A stretch of 64,000 nt of DNA from Pseudonocardia sp. GTDB taxonomy: Bacteria; Actinomycetota; Actinomycetes; Mycobacteriales; Pseudonocardiaceae. Under the pieces are notes generated by a model. That model was not told the DNA's origin. It saw only the letters and a program-made list of their open reading frames with translations, and did no database searches. The position numbers were made by a program, and so were the translations under genes. Shown in pieces: positions 6,735-63,349 of the stretch; position 1 is the first letter of the stretch; the number at the start of each line of letters is the position of its first letter. The stretch lies in the NCBI RefSeq assembly GCF_025965585.1, contig NZ_JAOPWR010000208.1:1-64000 (forward strand), in the 5' to 3' direction.

Positions 6735-8080
6735 ACGTGCTCCTGTCGATCGGTGGTGAGGGAGGCGACGGCAAGGGTCATCAGCAGCGGCAGGACGGGA
6801 ACGTGCCAGAGGAAGTCGAACGCGCTGTGCACGGCGAACCCGGCCAGGATCGCGAGCGCGGCGGCGGCCTCGGGCGTCCGTCGGCGGACCGCGCCCGCCG
6901 CGAGCGCCACCGCACCGGCCAGCGCCAGCGCGAGGCCGACCACGCCCGTCTCGGTGGCGGTCTGGAGGAACTCGTCGTGCGTGTACTGCGCATGGACCGG
7001 CGCTCCCGTGTGGTCGACATAGTGCAGGTTCAGCAGGCCGGGCCCGACACCCGTCAGCGGTGACGACCAGAACTGCGCGGCGGTCACGCGCGTGAGGTCC
7101 GCGCGCTCGTCCGAGGTGGCGGTGAGCCGGGTCGTCGCGATCCCGGCGGCCGCGTGGCCGACGAGGCCGCGTCCCGTCGGCAGGACGAGGAGCAGCGCGA
7201 CGGCGAGCACCGCCACCAACGCCAGGTGCCGCAGCCGCAGGCGTCCGCCAACGACGAGCACGGCCGCGCCGACGACCAGCCCGGCCAGCGCCGGCAACGG
7301 CTGCGCGGCCCCGCCCACCGGCAGCGACGGCAGCAGCCCGACGAACGCCACCGCCACGGCCGGCAGCACCGGCATGAAGCGACGCCACCGCGCGACGTCA
7401 CGAACGAGGAAGGCGCAGACCACCGCGGCGACCACGAGGCCGAGCGCGCCCGCCCGGCTCATCGTCGTCGCCAGCCCGAGGAGCAGCACCGCGGCCAGTC
7501 CGTTCGTGAGCAGCCCCGGCGGCACGACGGTCACGGCCAGCACCAGTGCGACGACCAGGAACGCGGCGGTCACGTTGGCGTAGGTGATGGTCGACGACGC
7601 GCGCCACAGCCCGCTCGACGGCAGCGCCAGGGGCTCCAGGTGCAGCGCCACGCCCACCCAGCACGAGAGCGCCACCACGGCGGCCACCGCCAGCACGACG
7701 CTGAGCAGGATGCGCCGCGACTCCGCGAGCAGGCCCGACGCCGCCAGCGCCGACGCGGCCAGCCCGCAGGCCACCGCAGCGGTCGGCACGGCTGCGCCCA
7801 CGTCGGCGTGGATCAGCCCGCTGACCAGCGCCCACCCCGCGAAGAGCACCCAGCAGGCCGCCGCGATCGCCACGGCCCGCCCGACCGGCCTGCGCGTCAG
7901 GACACGGGCGACGGCCGCGACGGCCACCAGCACCAACACCGTCACGGCCTGGCGTCCGTAGAAACCGCCCTGTGCCAGCGCCGCGTAGGCGACGGCCGCA
8001 CCGAGACCCAGCACGACGACGCGGTCGGCGACGCCGGGCCGGGAGCCGGTCACGGGGAGTGCTGGTGCGATCACGATCAT
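6731..8080 (-). CDS. O-antigen ligase/polymerase-like (Wzy/WaaL) membrane protein
   Basis: A 449-aa protein with 11-12 predicted membrane segments throughout and a large polar loop near residues 310-370 containing RLTATSDERADLTRVTAAQF, WSSPLTGVGPGLL and HDEFLQTATETGVVGLAL. This is the H(D/N)xxL...ETGxxG signature of the Wzy_C/O-antigen ligase superfamily. Such proteins polymerise or attach glycans on the outer face of the membrane. No glycan biosynthesis genes are adjacent; the only partner is the tiny secreted peptide whose start overlaps its stop. Confidence 0.85.
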   Translation of the reverse strand: MIVIAPALPVTGSRPGVADRVVVLGLGAAVAYAALAQGGFYGRQAVTVLVLVAVAAVARVLTRRPVGRAVAIAAACWVLFAGWALVSGLIHADVGAAVPTAAVACGLAASALAASGLLAESRRILLSVVLAVAAVVALSCWVGVALHLEPLALPSSGLWRASSTITYANVTAAFLVVALVLAVTVVPPGLLTNGLAAVLLLGLATTMSRAGALGLVVAAVVCAFLVRDVARWRRFMPVLPAVAVAFVGLLPSLPVGGAAQPLPALAGLVVGAAVLVVGGRLRLRHLALVAVLAVALLLVLPTGRGLVGHAAAGIATTRLTATSDERADLTRVTAAQFWSSPLTGVGPGLLNLHYVDHTGAPVHAQYTHDEFLQTATETGVVGLALALAGAVALAAGAVRRRTPEAAAALAILAGFAVHSAFDFLWHVPVLPLLMTLAVASLTTDRQEHV

Positions 8081-57890: not shown

Positions 57891-57978
57891 GGTAGCGTGT
57901 CCGAGCGGCCGAAGGAGCACGCCTCGAAAGCGTGTGAGGTGCAAGCCTCCGTGGGTTCAAATCCCACCGCTACCGCCA
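57891..57978 (+). tRNA. tRNA-Ser (anticodon CGA), CCA encoded; AICE attachment site
   Basis: The acceptor GGTAGCG pairs with CGCTACC. The anticodon loop is CTCGAAA (CGA), the variable arm is long, the T-arm is GTGGGTTCAAATCCCAC, and CCA is encoded. The integrase stop is 76 bp downstream on the opposite strand, the usual geometry when the 3' end of the tRNA gene is attB. Confidence 0.96.
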
Positions 57979-58053
57979 GCCTCACCAGGCAGAACGCCGG
58001 AAGGGTCCACCAGGATCCGACCGGCGTTTCTGCTTCTAGTCTCAGTTCTAGTC

Positions 58054-59277
58054 TCATTCGCTATCCGCGGGCCCCTCGTTGACCTGCCAGATCAGGCCGC
58101 CGACCCGCGACGCGATGTCGCGCTGGATGGCCGATGTGACGTGCTGGTACCGCGCCGCCATCGCCGTGTGCGACCACCCCATGATGCCCATGACCGCCCG
58201 TTCCGGGACGCCAAGCAGGAGCAGCACCGTCGCCGCGGTGTGGCGGGCATCGTGCAGCCGGCCGTCACGAACGCCGGCCCGGACGAGGAGCTTCTTCCAG
58301 TCGTCCCAGTCGGTGCGCGGGTTCAGCGGGGCGCCGGTCGGGGTGGCGAACAGCCAGTCGCCGTCCTTCCAGAGCTGCGCCGCGATCTCCCGTTCCCGGT
58401 CCTGTTCGACCCGGTGCGCCTTCAGCAGCTCCACGAGCTCCGCCGGTAGCCCGATTCCCCGGCGGCCCGCGCGCGACTTGGTCTCCGCCGTCTCGTCACG
58501 CTCGGGTTGACGCTGCGGGCAGTGGCCGGCGTACTTCCGACCGCAGGTGTCGCCGCACCCGTGCCGCCACCGAGGACGCAGCCGACCTCGCCGAACGAAC
58601 ATCGACCCGGCGTCGAGATTGACGTCGGACCACTTCAACCCGAGCGCTTCGCCTTGCCGCAGCCCGAGCGCGAGAGCGACGGCCCAGCGAGCCCCGTTCC
58701 GTCCGTCGAGCGCGGTCTTCAGAAGGAGCCGGATCTCGTCCACGGAGTACGGCTCGATCTCGTGTTCAATGAGCCGCGGAGCCTTCGCCAGCGTCGCCGG
58801 ATTCCGCGCGAGGTAGCCCCGCTTCACCGCCTCGTTGAGCGCCGTCCGCAGCGTCCGGTGGGCCTGATGTGCTGTGGCCGCCGCGCTGCCGTTCTTCATC
58901 ATGCGGACGTAGAGCTTCTCCAGGTGCTCCGGCTCCAGGCGGTCGAGGCGGTGCTTCCCGATGCCGGGGATCAGATGCACGTTCACGGCCACGCGGTAGC
59001 CGGAGATCGTGTTCTCGCGGACGAACGGCGCCGCGATGTTCTCCACCCAGTGCGTGAGCCACTTCTCGACCGTCCACGTCGGGCCCGACTTGCGAATGGT
59101 TCCAGCGTCGCGACCCTTCTCCAGCGCACGAACCTTGCGCGTCACCTCTGCCCGGGTGCCCATGACGTGCCGCCGATCAGGCCGGCCGTCGTCCTTCACC
59201 CCGACCGTGACGCGGCCGTGCCAGTACCCGTCCTTCCCGAGGTAGATGCTCGAAGCACCGTTCGGTGAGCGCGCCAT
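58054..59277 (-). CDS. int: Site-specific integrase of the AICE (tyrosine recombinase)
   Basis: A 407-aa protein from ATG MARSPNGASSIYLGKDGYWH. It has an AP2-like arm-binding N-terminus, the SAM-like core-binding domain (WLTHWVENIAAPFVRENTIS), and the catalytic domain with box I LGLRQGEALGLKW, box II HDARHTAATVLLLLGVPERA and Tyr in AARYQHVT. A Cys-rich insert (HGCGDTCGRKYAGHC) is seen in related integrases. All catalytic residues are intact, so it should integrate at the adjacent tRNA-Ser. It overlaps xis by 1 nt. Confidence 0.95.
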   Translation of the reverse strand: MARSPNGASSIYLGKDGYWHGRVTVGVKDDGRPDRRHVMGTRAEVTRKVRALEKGRDAGTIRKSGPTWTVEKWLTHWVENIAAPFVRENTISGYRVAVNVHLIPGIGKHRLDRLEPEHLEKLYVRMMKNGSAAATAHQAHRTLRTALNEAVKRGYLARNPATLAKAPRLIEHEIEPYSVDEIRLLLKTALDGRNGARWAVALALGLRQGEALGLKWSDVNLDAGSMFVRRGRLRPRWRHGCGDTCGRKYAGHCPQRQPERDETAETKSRAGRRGIGLPAELVELLKAHRVEQDREREIAAQLWKDGDWLFATPTGAPLNPRTDWDDWKKLLVRAGVRDGRLHDARHTAATVLLLLGVPERAVMGIMGWSHTAMAARYQHVTSAIQRDIASRVGGLIWQVNEGPADSE

Positions 59278-59492
59278 CACGCAGCCTCCGGACCATGCGG
59301 GCACGCGCGCAGCCGCAGGACGTAGGAGTCCAGCGCGTCCGTCGGAATGCGCCGCAGGCGGCCGATCCGCACCGATTCCACCTCACCGGCCGTGACCAGT
59401 GCGTACATCAGCGTCCGGCCGATTCCGAGCCGTTCCGCGGCTTCCTCGACGGTGAGCACGATCCGCAATGGCCGTGCGGTTCCGGTCTCCAT
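59277..59492 (-). CDS. xis: Excisionase (helix-turn-helix, MerR/AlpA-like)
   Basis: A 71-aa protein: PLRIVLTVEEAAERLGIGRT LMYALVTAGEVESVRIGRLR RIPTDALDSYV. This is the winged-HTH excisionase type (HTH_17) that is encoded directly before integrases. GAGGAGG precedes the ATG. It starts within the Rep stop (TGATG) and ends within the Int start, so excision, replication and integration functions are coupled. Confidence 0.93.
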   Translation of the reverse strand: METGTARPLRIVLTVEEAAERLGIGRTLMYALVTAGEVESVRIGRLRRIPTDALDSYVLRLRACPHGPEAA

Positions 59493-61159
59493 CACGCTGC
59501 CTCCTCGGTAGTTGCCGAACGGTCGGGCGGATCGCCGCCGGCCACGAGTTGGGCGGCGTCGTAGTCGGCTTTCCAGCGTTGTCGCTCGGAGATCGCAGCC
59601 AGGAGCAACGCGGGTCGGGTGGGCACGTCCGGGTCGCCGGCCTTCGTGCGTTCCCACTCGAACGGCCCGTCGTCCACCGCGTAGCCGGGCCGCACGCCGG
59701 CGCGGTCGAGAAGTTGCCGAACGAACGCCGAGCGCTCAGCCCGGTGATCGTCCAGGGTCTTCCCGGACCACTTGCGCGAGACCAAGACGCGGCGCCCGGC
59801 GATGCCCAGGTGCTCCGGCTTGTGCGCCTTGCCCTTGCACTGGCCCGGCACCGTGGCCAGGCGGGCGCCCTTGGGCTGGATGCCGTAGAGCAGCCACACT
59901 CCGCAGCGCGGCGAGCACGGCGTGACGCGGAGTTCGGCGACCAAGCGGTCACGGTGCCGGCGGGCCCGGTCGGTGGCGCTGTCGGCGAGGCCGGCGGCGT
60001 GGGCGACGTCCTTGGTCAGGTACTTGGTGAGGTAGCCGATGTGCCGGCCGGCTTCCTCGGTGCCGCCGAGGATGCCCTTCACGTGGACCTGCGCCCCGAA
60101 CGTCACCACGTGCGCGGGCGCGTTGAGGTCTTCGCAGGCGTCGTCGAAGGTGGGCAGGGGTTCTCGGGTGTCGGGGTCGACGAATCCCTTGGTGCGGTCG
60201 TCCCACCGGGGCACGTGGTCGCCGCGGTAGCGGATCTCGTCGTGGGCCGGCCACCACACCTGGTGATAGGTGGCGGCCGCGATCGCCCGCAGCTCCGCTC
60301 GCGGGATGGTCCCGCGGATAGCGGCATGGAAGTGCGGCGCCCCGCGCCGTTGCGGCTCGATGGTGCCGAAGTACTGGACATCCCAGCCCACGCACCGGCG
60401 GGTGTTCTGCCAGAACCGGTCCAGCAGGGCCGGGAAGTGGATCGCGTCCCGGGCGGCACGTCGGTAGTCGTAGCGGTCGGGGTCGAGCGCGGCCCCGTCT
60501 CCGTCCACCCGCCCATAGCTGTCCAGGGTGAGCGTCAGGAAGGTGGAGGGCCGGTACTTCTGCCGGAAGACCTGCCCGAGCGTGCGTTTCTCCACCGGCC
60601 GGCGCGGGAGGTTGGGTGCGTCCTGCCGCCGCCGGGTCGAGCGCTTGCGGGCGGGGCGGTCGGGTGGGTCGAGGGGTTCGAGCCGGCCGCGTACCCCGAG
60701 GCCGCGTAGTTGCTCGTCGACGACCTCGACGGCGTCGCGGATCTCCTCACACTCGGTGTCGTCGCCGTCGGCGCGGGCGAGCTGGTAGGCGGCGTGCAGA
60801 TCGGCCCGGACCGCCATGAGTTCCTTCTGCGCCTCCGAAGGGTCGGCCGGCTTGACGAGGGGTTCGTGCTCGAGGTGCCAGCCTTCCCGGCACTGGACCA
60901 TCCGCAGGCGGCGTTGCTTCTCCGCGCACGGCGGGCAGATGTCGTCGCGGCGGGCCCCGCACGGCACCGGCACCACATCGACGCGGCCCGAGGTGAGATC
61001 GATGCGGCGCAGGGCCAGGGGTCGGACGCAGACGCCGTGATCCTCGGCGAGCTGCCGGGCGACATCGCCGGTGAGGGCGAGCAGGGCCTTCTGTGCGCGG
61101 GTGAGCTGGTCCTGATCCACCCACTCCGGAGCATCGGTCATGGTGGTCTCGGTGGTCAT
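59492..61159 (-). CDS. repSA: Replication initiator protein of RepSA type
   Basis: A 555-aa protein from ATG MTTETTMTDAPEW behind GGAGG. The N-terminal Cys cluster (CGARRDDICPPCAEKQRRLR) is a probable zinc motif. A long central region follows (YRPSTFLTLTLDSYGRVDGD), then the HUH-type motif APHFHAAIRGTIPRAELRAI, and the putative catalytic-Tyr region GYLTKYLTKDVAHAAG. These match the rolling-circle initiators of pSAM2-type AICEs. Its start overlaps the transfer gene stop (ATGA) and its stop overlaps xis. Apparently intact. Confidence 0.9.
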   Translation of the reverse strand: MTTETTMTDAPEWVDQDQLTRAQKALLALTGDVARQLAEDHGVCVRPLALRRIDLTSGRVDVVPVPCGARRDDICPPCAEKQRRLRMVQCREGWHLEHEPLVKPADPSEAQKELMAVRADLHAAYQLARADGDDTECEEIRDAVEVVDEQLRGLGVRGRLEPLDPPDRPARKRSTRRRQDAPNLPRRPVEKRTLGQVFRQKYRPSTFLTLTLDSYGRVDGDGAALDPDRYDYRRAARDAIHFPALLDRFWQNTRRCVGWDVQYFGTIEPQRRGAPHFHAAIRGTIPRAELRAIAAATYHQVWWPAHDEIRYRGDHVPRWDDRTKGFVDPDTREPLPTFDDACEDLNAPAHVVTFGAQVHVKGILGGTEEAGRHIGYLTKYLTKDVAHAAGLADSATDRARRHRDRLVAELRVTPCSPRCGVWLLYGIQPKGARLATVPGQCKGKAHKPEHLGIAGRRVLVSRKWSGKTLDDHRAERSAFVRQLLDRAGVRPGYAVDDGPFEWERTKAGDPDVPTRPALLLAAISERQRWKADYDAAQLVAGGDPPDRSATTEEAA

Positions 61160-62736
61160 CGGGTGCCTCCGGCAGGGAGGGGGACGGGCTTCCACAACGA
61201 CGGGGCCTGCTCGGGGATGGCCGCGTGGACAGGCCGGGTGACGAAGGTTTCGAGGTGCTTGATCGTCTCGTCGGGCACCCACCCGGCCCGCACCCGCACT
61301 GGTTCGCGGATGCCCTCGCCGAACAGGTACCCGACACCCGGCTCCGATTCGCCGATGCGGTTGGCCCAGGCGCCGCGGTCGTAGGCGTGCTCACCGAGCA
61401 CCATGCTGACGTGGCTCTTGGACGCGACGCGCAGGCAGATGCGGCGCGGGAACAGCTCCCGGACCGGGACGGTGTCCTTGGTCGGCTCCTGCACGTAGCC
61501 GCGCACGGTGTAGCCCAGAGCCCGGCCCTGGGTGGTCAGCAACGCCACCCTCTCAGTGATCGCTTCCCGGGTCTTACGGTCCCCGACGTAGCGCACGAGG
61601 GCGCCGATCTCGTCGAACTCGACGAGTTCGAGGGGGTGCTCGCGGCTGATCGGCACGGTCCGGACCCGTCCGGCGAACTCGACCTTCCGGGCTTCCATCC
61701 CGGCCACCAGGTCATCGAGCAGGTCGAGGGCGTCGCGCGAGGTGACGGCGTAGCGGTGGAAGACCCGGCGGCCGTAGGCCAGTTCCATGGCCTTCGGGTC
61801 GATCCCGGAGACGCGGACGAGGCCGTCGCGGATGGCCGGGGCGATGGACACGATGGGCGCCCACATCACCGAGTTCTTCCCCGCCCCCGTCGACCCGGCC
61901 GTGAGGGTGTGCCCTCCGGCGAGGGGTTGGTGCCAGTCGGTGCCGTACTCGGTGCGCCCGGATCACACCTTGCGCAGGTCCAGCCCCGCGCCGGCCACAC
62001 CCGCCAGGGCGCCGAGGTCGGTGCAGGGGACAACGTCGGCGAGGCGGTCGCGGCGCTGGTAATCGATCGACACCAGGTTCGGCCCGAGTTCGCGAATCTG
62101 GCAGCGGGCCACGCCCCGGGCGACTGCCAGCGAGCGGGCGGCCTGGTCGAAGTCCTCCGGTGTCTGCCCCGCCACCAGGCGCACGCGGACTTCGTCCCAG
62201 GAGGCGCCCGAGCGCACCCCGATCACCCGCGGCGACTGGTCACGGCGGGGCGCGGCCTTGGGCGGGACGGCGGAGCGGCGGAAGGGGTTGACCTGCACCG
62301 TCACCCCGGGCCCGTGATCGGCGACGGTGAGCCCGCAGGCGCGCAGCCATCGCGGCATGCGCGGGGCGTAGACGATCCAGCGCTGCCACCACGCCCGAAG
62401 CCACCGGCCCGCCAGCGGCTCGAAGGACTCCCGAGCAGCCCAGCGCCAGCCGAGCAGCCCGACCGCGACCACGGCGGCGGTGATGGTGAGGGAGAGCCAG
62501 CCGAGCCAGTAGCACCAGACCACCACCGCAGTTGTGGTGAGGCTGGTGCGCCAGTGGCGGACGATCTGCCGCCCGGCCCACCACAGCCCCTTGACCGCGA
62601 GCCACGCGGTCACGAACACCACGGCGATCGCGGCGGCGGCTTCCAGGATCTTGGTGACGGCCTGCCCGACCTTGTGCAGCACCCACAGCCCCGCGCCGGC
62701 CCCGGTCAGGACGAGGAGGAGTTGTCCGGTGGTCAT
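61156..62736 (-). pseudogene. traSA: FtsK/SpoIIIE-type transfer ATPase (TraSA), in-frame stop before Walker A
   Basis: A 526-codon reading interrupted at 61963-61965 by an in-frame TGA. The N-terminal part (from ATG behind GGGAGG) has membrane helices (LLLVLTGAGAGLWVLHKVGQ, TTTAVVVWCYWLGWLSLTIT) and an N-terminal domain ending AGAGLDLRKV. After the TGA the same frame continues SGRTEYGTDWHQPLAGGHTL and the Walker A TAGSTGAGKNSV, then the FtsK ATPase to the end. Restart codons after the TGA and before Walker A are absent, so any downstream product (VMWAP) lacks the P-loop. Either a nonsense mutation, or a sequencing error. Confidence 0.85.
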
Positions 62737-63062
62737 CACGCGACCTCCCGAACCAACGCCCCAGCCGGAGATCCCCAGCGCTGGTGGGCGGCCTGGCGGG
62801 TGACCCCGAGCCGGGAGGCGATCTCGCCCCACGAGTAGCCGGCCGCCCGCAGCCCGACCACCGCATCGGCGATCGCGGCTTCAAGGTCAGCCGCGAGCGC
62901 CGCGAGGTGGGGGAGGGCGTCGACGTCCCCGGTGGTGATGCGCCGGCCAGCAGCGCGCAGGATGCGGCGGGAGAAGGCGGTGAACTCGTCGTTCTCCATC
63001 ACCCGCCGTACCCCACCCGGTGTCAAGCCGGTCTTGACAGTCGACCGCGACCGCGGGCTCAT
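62736..63062 (-). CDS. Helix-turn-helix protein of the AICE
   Basis: A 108-aa protein. Residues about 40-80 are helical. The C-terminal HTH reads ADAVVGLRAAGYSWGEIASR and LGVTRQAAHQRWG, as in small DNA-binding proteins found before the transfer gene in pSAM2-like elements. It overlaps the transfer gene start (TGATG) and the Wbl gene stop (ATGA). It may regulate transfer or replication of the element. Confidence 0.85.
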   Translation of the reverse strand: MSPRSRSTVKTGLTPGGVRRVMENDEFTAFSRRILRAAGRRITTGDVDALPHLAALAADLEAAIADAVVGLRAAGYSWGEIASRLGVTRQAAHQRWGSPAGALVREVA

Positions 63063-63349
63063 GCGGCCACCGCCCCGGACCCGGCGACCGGGAGCCGCTC
63101 CGCGAGGAACAGGGCGTGTCGCTCGTCGGGAGTCGTGCCACCGATGACACCCCACCGGTGCGCCGGGTCCTCCCCGGCCATTGCGTCGAGCAGGCACGCA
63201 GCCTGAACAGGGCAGCGTGCGCAGACCCGCTTGGCCAGCTCCACGGCCGGCGCGGTCGAGGTGACGTCGACGGGGTAGAAGATCTCCGGGTCCGCATCCG
63301 CGCACAGCGCGCGGGTGCGCCAGTCCCGCCCGGCCGGTTCGCGGATCAT
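63059..63349 (-). CDS. WhiB-like (Wbl) iron-sulphur protein
   Basis: A 96-aa protein with four conserved Cys of the Wbl family: ALCADADPEIFYP, then KRVCARCPVQAACLLDAM (CxxC-x5-C). WGVIGGTTPDERHAL is the G(V/I)WGG-like turn (here WGVIGG). Wbl proteins bind a 4Fe-4S cluster and act with sigma factors. Encoded inside the element, it may sense redox or host state to set element gene expression. Overlaps both neighbours by 4 nt. Confidence 0.93.
   Translation of the reverse strand: MIREPAGRDWRTRALCADADPEIFYPVDVTSTAPAVELAKRVCARCPVQAACLLDAMAGEDPAHRWGVIGGTTPDERHALFLAERLPVAGSGAVAA

Follow-up and report, generated by a model that had tools for sequence, protein, structure and literature searches.

The element at the tRNA-Ser(CGA) gene

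The window, i.e. the whole 64,000-nucleotide stretch of Pseudonocardia DNA that was analysed, contains a tRNA-Ser(CGA) gene on the plus strand (57891..57978; tRNA search), followed on the minus strand by a set of genes typical of AICEs of the pSAM2 type. Nearest to the tRNA is a tyrosine integrase gene with an intact frame (58054..59304; PF00589, E 7.5e-21), then a gene for a small helix-turn-helix protein that is Xis-like by position (59277..59657; PF12728, E 2.9e-11) and an intact frame for a RepSA replication initiator (59492..61282; PF20199, E 1.5e-102), whose 5' part overlaps the end of the transfer gene tra; the starts of the latter two genes are not fixed. The NCBIfam equivalog model for RepSA was not reached (17 of 700 bits). 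On the other side, tra is adjoined by a WhiB-like regulator gene (63059..63349, minus strand; PF02467, E 1.6e-17), and L206, a related element in a different Pseudonocardia genome, carries a 98-aa gene at the equivalent position as judged from gene layout only. RepSA and the integrase adjoin tra in L206 as well.

The tRNA gene serves as the integration target. An attL of 114 bp (57922..58035, plus strand) agrees at 112 positions with an attR-like copy found elsewhere in the genome, on contig C40, where no complete tRNA is present, as attR should show. The gene that follows attR on C40 is presumably threonine dehydratase-like, a name we took from its translation; within the loci examined, no tRNA was found beside this gene in relatives, where one was sought as a sign of an empty site. 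Immediately within each of its two termini, the element has a 26-bp repeat, CTAGTCTCAGT..TAGTCTCATTCGC, with 24 of 26 positions identical (58036-58061 in the window, 1356-1381 in L128), and these repeats are possibly arm sites of the integrase. Because contig C437 stops at 65186, the assembly leaves the middle or right portion of the element unlinked. Related elements in other Pseudonocardia genomes adjoin tRNA-Lys, tRNA-Tyr and tRNA-Gln genes.

The earlier note on this DNA had assigned the element to the pSAM2-like AICEs, and the assignment holds: there is an integrase (PF00589) beside a tRNA gene with flanking att repeats (112/114 bp), a replication initiator of the RepSA/RepAM/Prim-Pol kind (PF20199) and an FtsK/SpoIIIE transfer protein (PF01580), though the frame of the last is interrupted here. 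These genes and repeats identify the locus as the left portion of a RepSA-class AICE integrated at the tRNA-Ser(CGA) gene of a Pseudonocardia.

The tra reading frame and its in-frame TGA

The tra gene is encoded on the minus strand, from an ATG at 62736 to a stop codon at 61158-61156, with the coding frame spanning 62736 to 61159; an in-frame GTG at 62832, upstream of the ATG, is an alternative start. The plus-strand TCA at 61963-61965 is a TGA on the minus strand, at tra codon 258. It is the single internal stop in the whole frame and is located 26 codons ahead of the GAGKNS P-loop. The listed minus-strand open reading frames run from 62832/62736 to 61963 (N-terminal part) and from 61869 to 61156 (C-terminal part, first start GTG), and a full-length Tra read through the TGA would have about 526 aa. 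The earlier note, which named no strand, was thus right that one in-frame TGA splits an AICE transfer ATPase gene.

The N-terminal part (codons 1-257; 61966..62736) consists of hydrophobic membrane stretches at residues ~23-55 and 71-97, seen in 19-residue hydropathy windows, and a linker. A Pfam search assigned it to no family, and it shows in-frame homology to intact Tra proteins. The C-terminal part, which includes the normal stop (61156..61962), contains the FtsK/SpoIIIE ATPase domain (PF01580, 32.2 bits against a Pfam cut-off of 24) with Walker A GSTGAGKNS and Walker B LELVEFDE. Hydropathy, the PF01580 match and end-to-end homology therefore all agree with the proposed picture of a frame open on either side of the TGA, with a membrane part before it and an FtsK ATPase part after it. 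The P-loop GAGKNS occupies codons 284-289 (61887-61870, in the segment 61868..61887), and downstream of the TGA no ATG, GTG or TTG comes before the GTG of codon 290 (61869-61867), the codon next to the P-loop. Since this first start codon follows GAGKNS, a restart downstream of the TGA would give an ATPase without Walker A, as had been predicted. The textbook P-loop is GK[ST], from which the GAGKNS of this Tra family departs; the residue after the lysine is Asn in 62 and Gly in 11 of 73 full-length relatives. A long plus-strand frame antisense to tra (61225-62838) was also considered and set aside as the complement of a conserved gene.

Read through the TGA, the tra frame aligns end to end and in the same frame with intact Pseudonocardia proteins. 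Identity is ~80-81% to L033 (81% over residues 21-519), 79% to L037 and 77% to L034, and both sides of the TGA match the same homologue in one frame, at ~73-80% in the nearest Pseudonocardia relatives. The alignment to related AICE Tra proteins, suggested earlier as a check, gave an end-to-end match, with exactly one stop in the window's own copy. As these alignments indicate, the split tra is one interrupted gene and not a chance alignment of frames. Among 73 distinct full-length relatives, codon 258 is Trp TGG in 57 and Phe, Leu, Val or Tyr in the remainder; neither a stop nor Cys occurs in any of the 73, so the split belongs to this sequence alone and does not characterise the family. The earlier note had said that its claim would be refuted by homologues in which two separate genes meet at this very position; these were looked for in the same set and none was seen. 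Plasmid sequences gave tra relatives of <60% identity only, and viral contigs gave none. An in-frame stop that homologues lack, with homology continuing on both sides of it, is the pattern of a pseudogene.

The rest of the gene appears sound. The alignment with the 73 relatives has 180 columns with >=95% conservation; the window Tra departs in 2 of them, compared with 0-10 departures in intact relatives. Its dN/dS against close relatives has a median of 0.30 (Nei-Gojobori), close to the median of 0.31 for pairs of relatives, and is raised in neither half. The catalytic P-loop Lys and the Walker B Asp-Glu are retained. Conserved columns, dN/dS and the intact Walker A and B motifs thus bear out the view that the frame around the TGA has not decayed further, which suggests that the stop is either young or not real. 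As the nearest full-length homologue is only ~80% identical, this absence of decay is all that limits how old the mutation can be.

Origin and possible decoding of the stop codon

The earlier note had left the choice between a recent mutation and a sequencing error, and this pair remains the best-supported reading given that no other decay is seen and that none of the 73 full-length relatives has the stop. Between the two, we favour a recent nonsense mutation in tra that disables the autonomous transfer of the AICE, and we put the probability of this reading as a whole at about 0.83. An error of sequencing or assembly, or a low-frequency variant from a mixed sample, would leave the gene intact in the organism. 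This is improbable, though it deserves to be taken seriously: the remainder of tra looks fully constrained, the draft assembly comprises 555 contigs and has an estimated contamination of 5%, and TGA differs by just one base from the usual TGG. As a control for the error rate, we scanned 268 kb of the same assembly, comprising 156 coding-like segments, for frames with a single stop. Besides tra, nine same-frame stop candidates were obtained, six of which have Pfam domains all on one side or of different families on each side, while three have no Pfam match. The scan therefore contains no other Pfam-supported stop-split gene, and none of the nine candidates was shown to be split, which argues against frequent errors and tips the balance slightly towards a real mutation. 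Other Pseudonocardia genomes also contain broken tra copies, and AICE decay (DAICEs) has been reported in Streptomyces (PMC9513070), so a real mutation would not be surprising. Overall, we regard the TGA base as quite probably real rather than an assembly error.

A true TGA could still be decoded. Programmed or leaky UGA readthrough, by a near-cognate tRNA-Trp or by the host selenocysteine (Sec) machinery, would yield a little full-length Tra and so act as a brake on a kil-type transfer protein. The fully preserved frame downstream of the TGA would fit such a brake, and so would the tRNA-Sec in the genome (75.6 bits, anticodon TCA). We nevertheless consider it very unlikely. The TGA is private to this one sequence, and at codon 258 the relatives have Trp, Phe, Leu, Val or Tyr, never Cys and never a stop. 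No SECIS family matched after the TGA, and the folding of the 63 nt that begin at the TGA is not better than that of shuffled sequences (z 0.62). With bulky hydrophobic residues in the homologues, no SECIS match and no unusual fold, Sec insertion is not expected, and selenoprotein recoding, for which we looked for a SECIS together with Cys or Sec in homologues, was rejected despite the tRNA-Sec. A suppressor tRNA was rejected as well: on reading the anticodons of all 41 tRNA matches and the tRNA-Sec, UCA was found solely in tRNA-Sec, and tRNA-Trp has only the anticodon CCA. The tRNA-Sec gene is at G000:C22:17787-17878 (L193), and given its presence the organism may make selenoproteins. Finally, that tra is now two genes whose membrane and motor halves cooperate is hardly credible even though both halves are long open frames, since the sole restart falls after the P-loop, leaving the motor half without Walker A, and no relative is split at codon 258.

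Consequences for transfer and comparison with known elements

Under the favoured reading, a recent nonsense mutation, the tra gene of a RepSA-class AICE would have gained a stop codon where relatives have Trp TGG. The ribosome would halt after 257 residues and leave a membrane stub without the motor. No start codon of the motor half lies far enough upstream to retain Walker A, so a functional FtsK-type DNA pump is not expected. Excision, replication and re-integration should still be possible, since the frames for int, the xis-like gene and rep are all intact, and the movement of the element between cells would be blocked unless an intact Tra were supplied in trans. Transfer in Actinobacteria needs one FtsK/SpoIIIE-like protein (PMC3218068), and TraB is likewise described as a single transfer protein (PMC5365140). 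A search of the genome for a second intact tra found none; the only match, to a frame of 869 codons, is weak (31% identity, E 4e-5) and is taken to be the cell's own FtsK. We infer that the cell makes no full-length Tra and that the element has lost transfer; by analogy with these systems, it would be unable to transfer alone. With a premature stop in the sole gene needed to move between cells, this small mobile element of a Pseudonocardia soil bacterium is probably stranded.

A possible motive for the loss comes from regulation. In pSAM2, traSA is a kil function kept in check by korSA (PMC8584621). The window's genome yielded no close GntR match, the best having 32% identity and lying on contig C238; the middle of the element is not on C437 or C40. 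By analogy with the kil-type traSA, loss of tra might be favoured here, where a KorSA-like regulator was not found in the incompletely assembled element. In L206, a GntR-UTRA (KorSA-like) regulator gene (7007-7753) is located upstream of tra.

In summary, we regard tra as a pseudogene at an early stage of decay, carried by an element of a known kind; a small chance remains that the base is an error. If real, it represents a clean early step of AICE decay in which excision and replication should be kept and just transfer is lost. It does not change the view of how AICEs work, being ordinary recent gene decay without a new mechanism, and it carries a warning for annotation, as the element should not be counted as self-transmissible.

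Compared with pSAM2-type AICEs (RepSA class; TraSA), the element has the same parts, namely a tyrosine integrase by a tRNA, a helix-turn-helix Xis-like protein, RepSA, an FtsK/SpoIIIE-type Tra and att direct repeats, but its tra is interrupted by a stop and the assembled parts examined contain no GntR (KorSA-like) regulator. Its Tra resembles those of other Pseudonocardia AICEs (L033, L034 and L037; e.g. P. alaniniphila and P. oceani), with ~75-80% identity and the same Walker A and B motifs, and their tra genes also adjoin RepSA and Int, yet these genes are uninterrupted. Damaged copies elsewhere in Pseudonocardia, which the present case fits, include tra genes with one-base frameshifts (L113 and L120) and with 5' truncations away from contig ends (L117, L118 and L119). 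What is left of tra in L119 is ~89% identical, and from a point within the P-loop its alignment continues ~3 kb further along the window's element. This pattern fits a deletion in which L119 lost the 5' region of tra, ~3 kb being absent by comparison with the element in the window. Another genome, G044 (L121 and L122), holds numerous tra copies, and in several the similarity ends at about residue 451; short C-terminal fragments are present as well. Like these five damaged Pseudonocardia tra genes and the Streptomyces DAICEs, the window holds an integrated element with a disabled gene; however, the published Streptomyces DAICEs lost integrase or replicase genes, whereas here a single base is changed and tra alone is affected.
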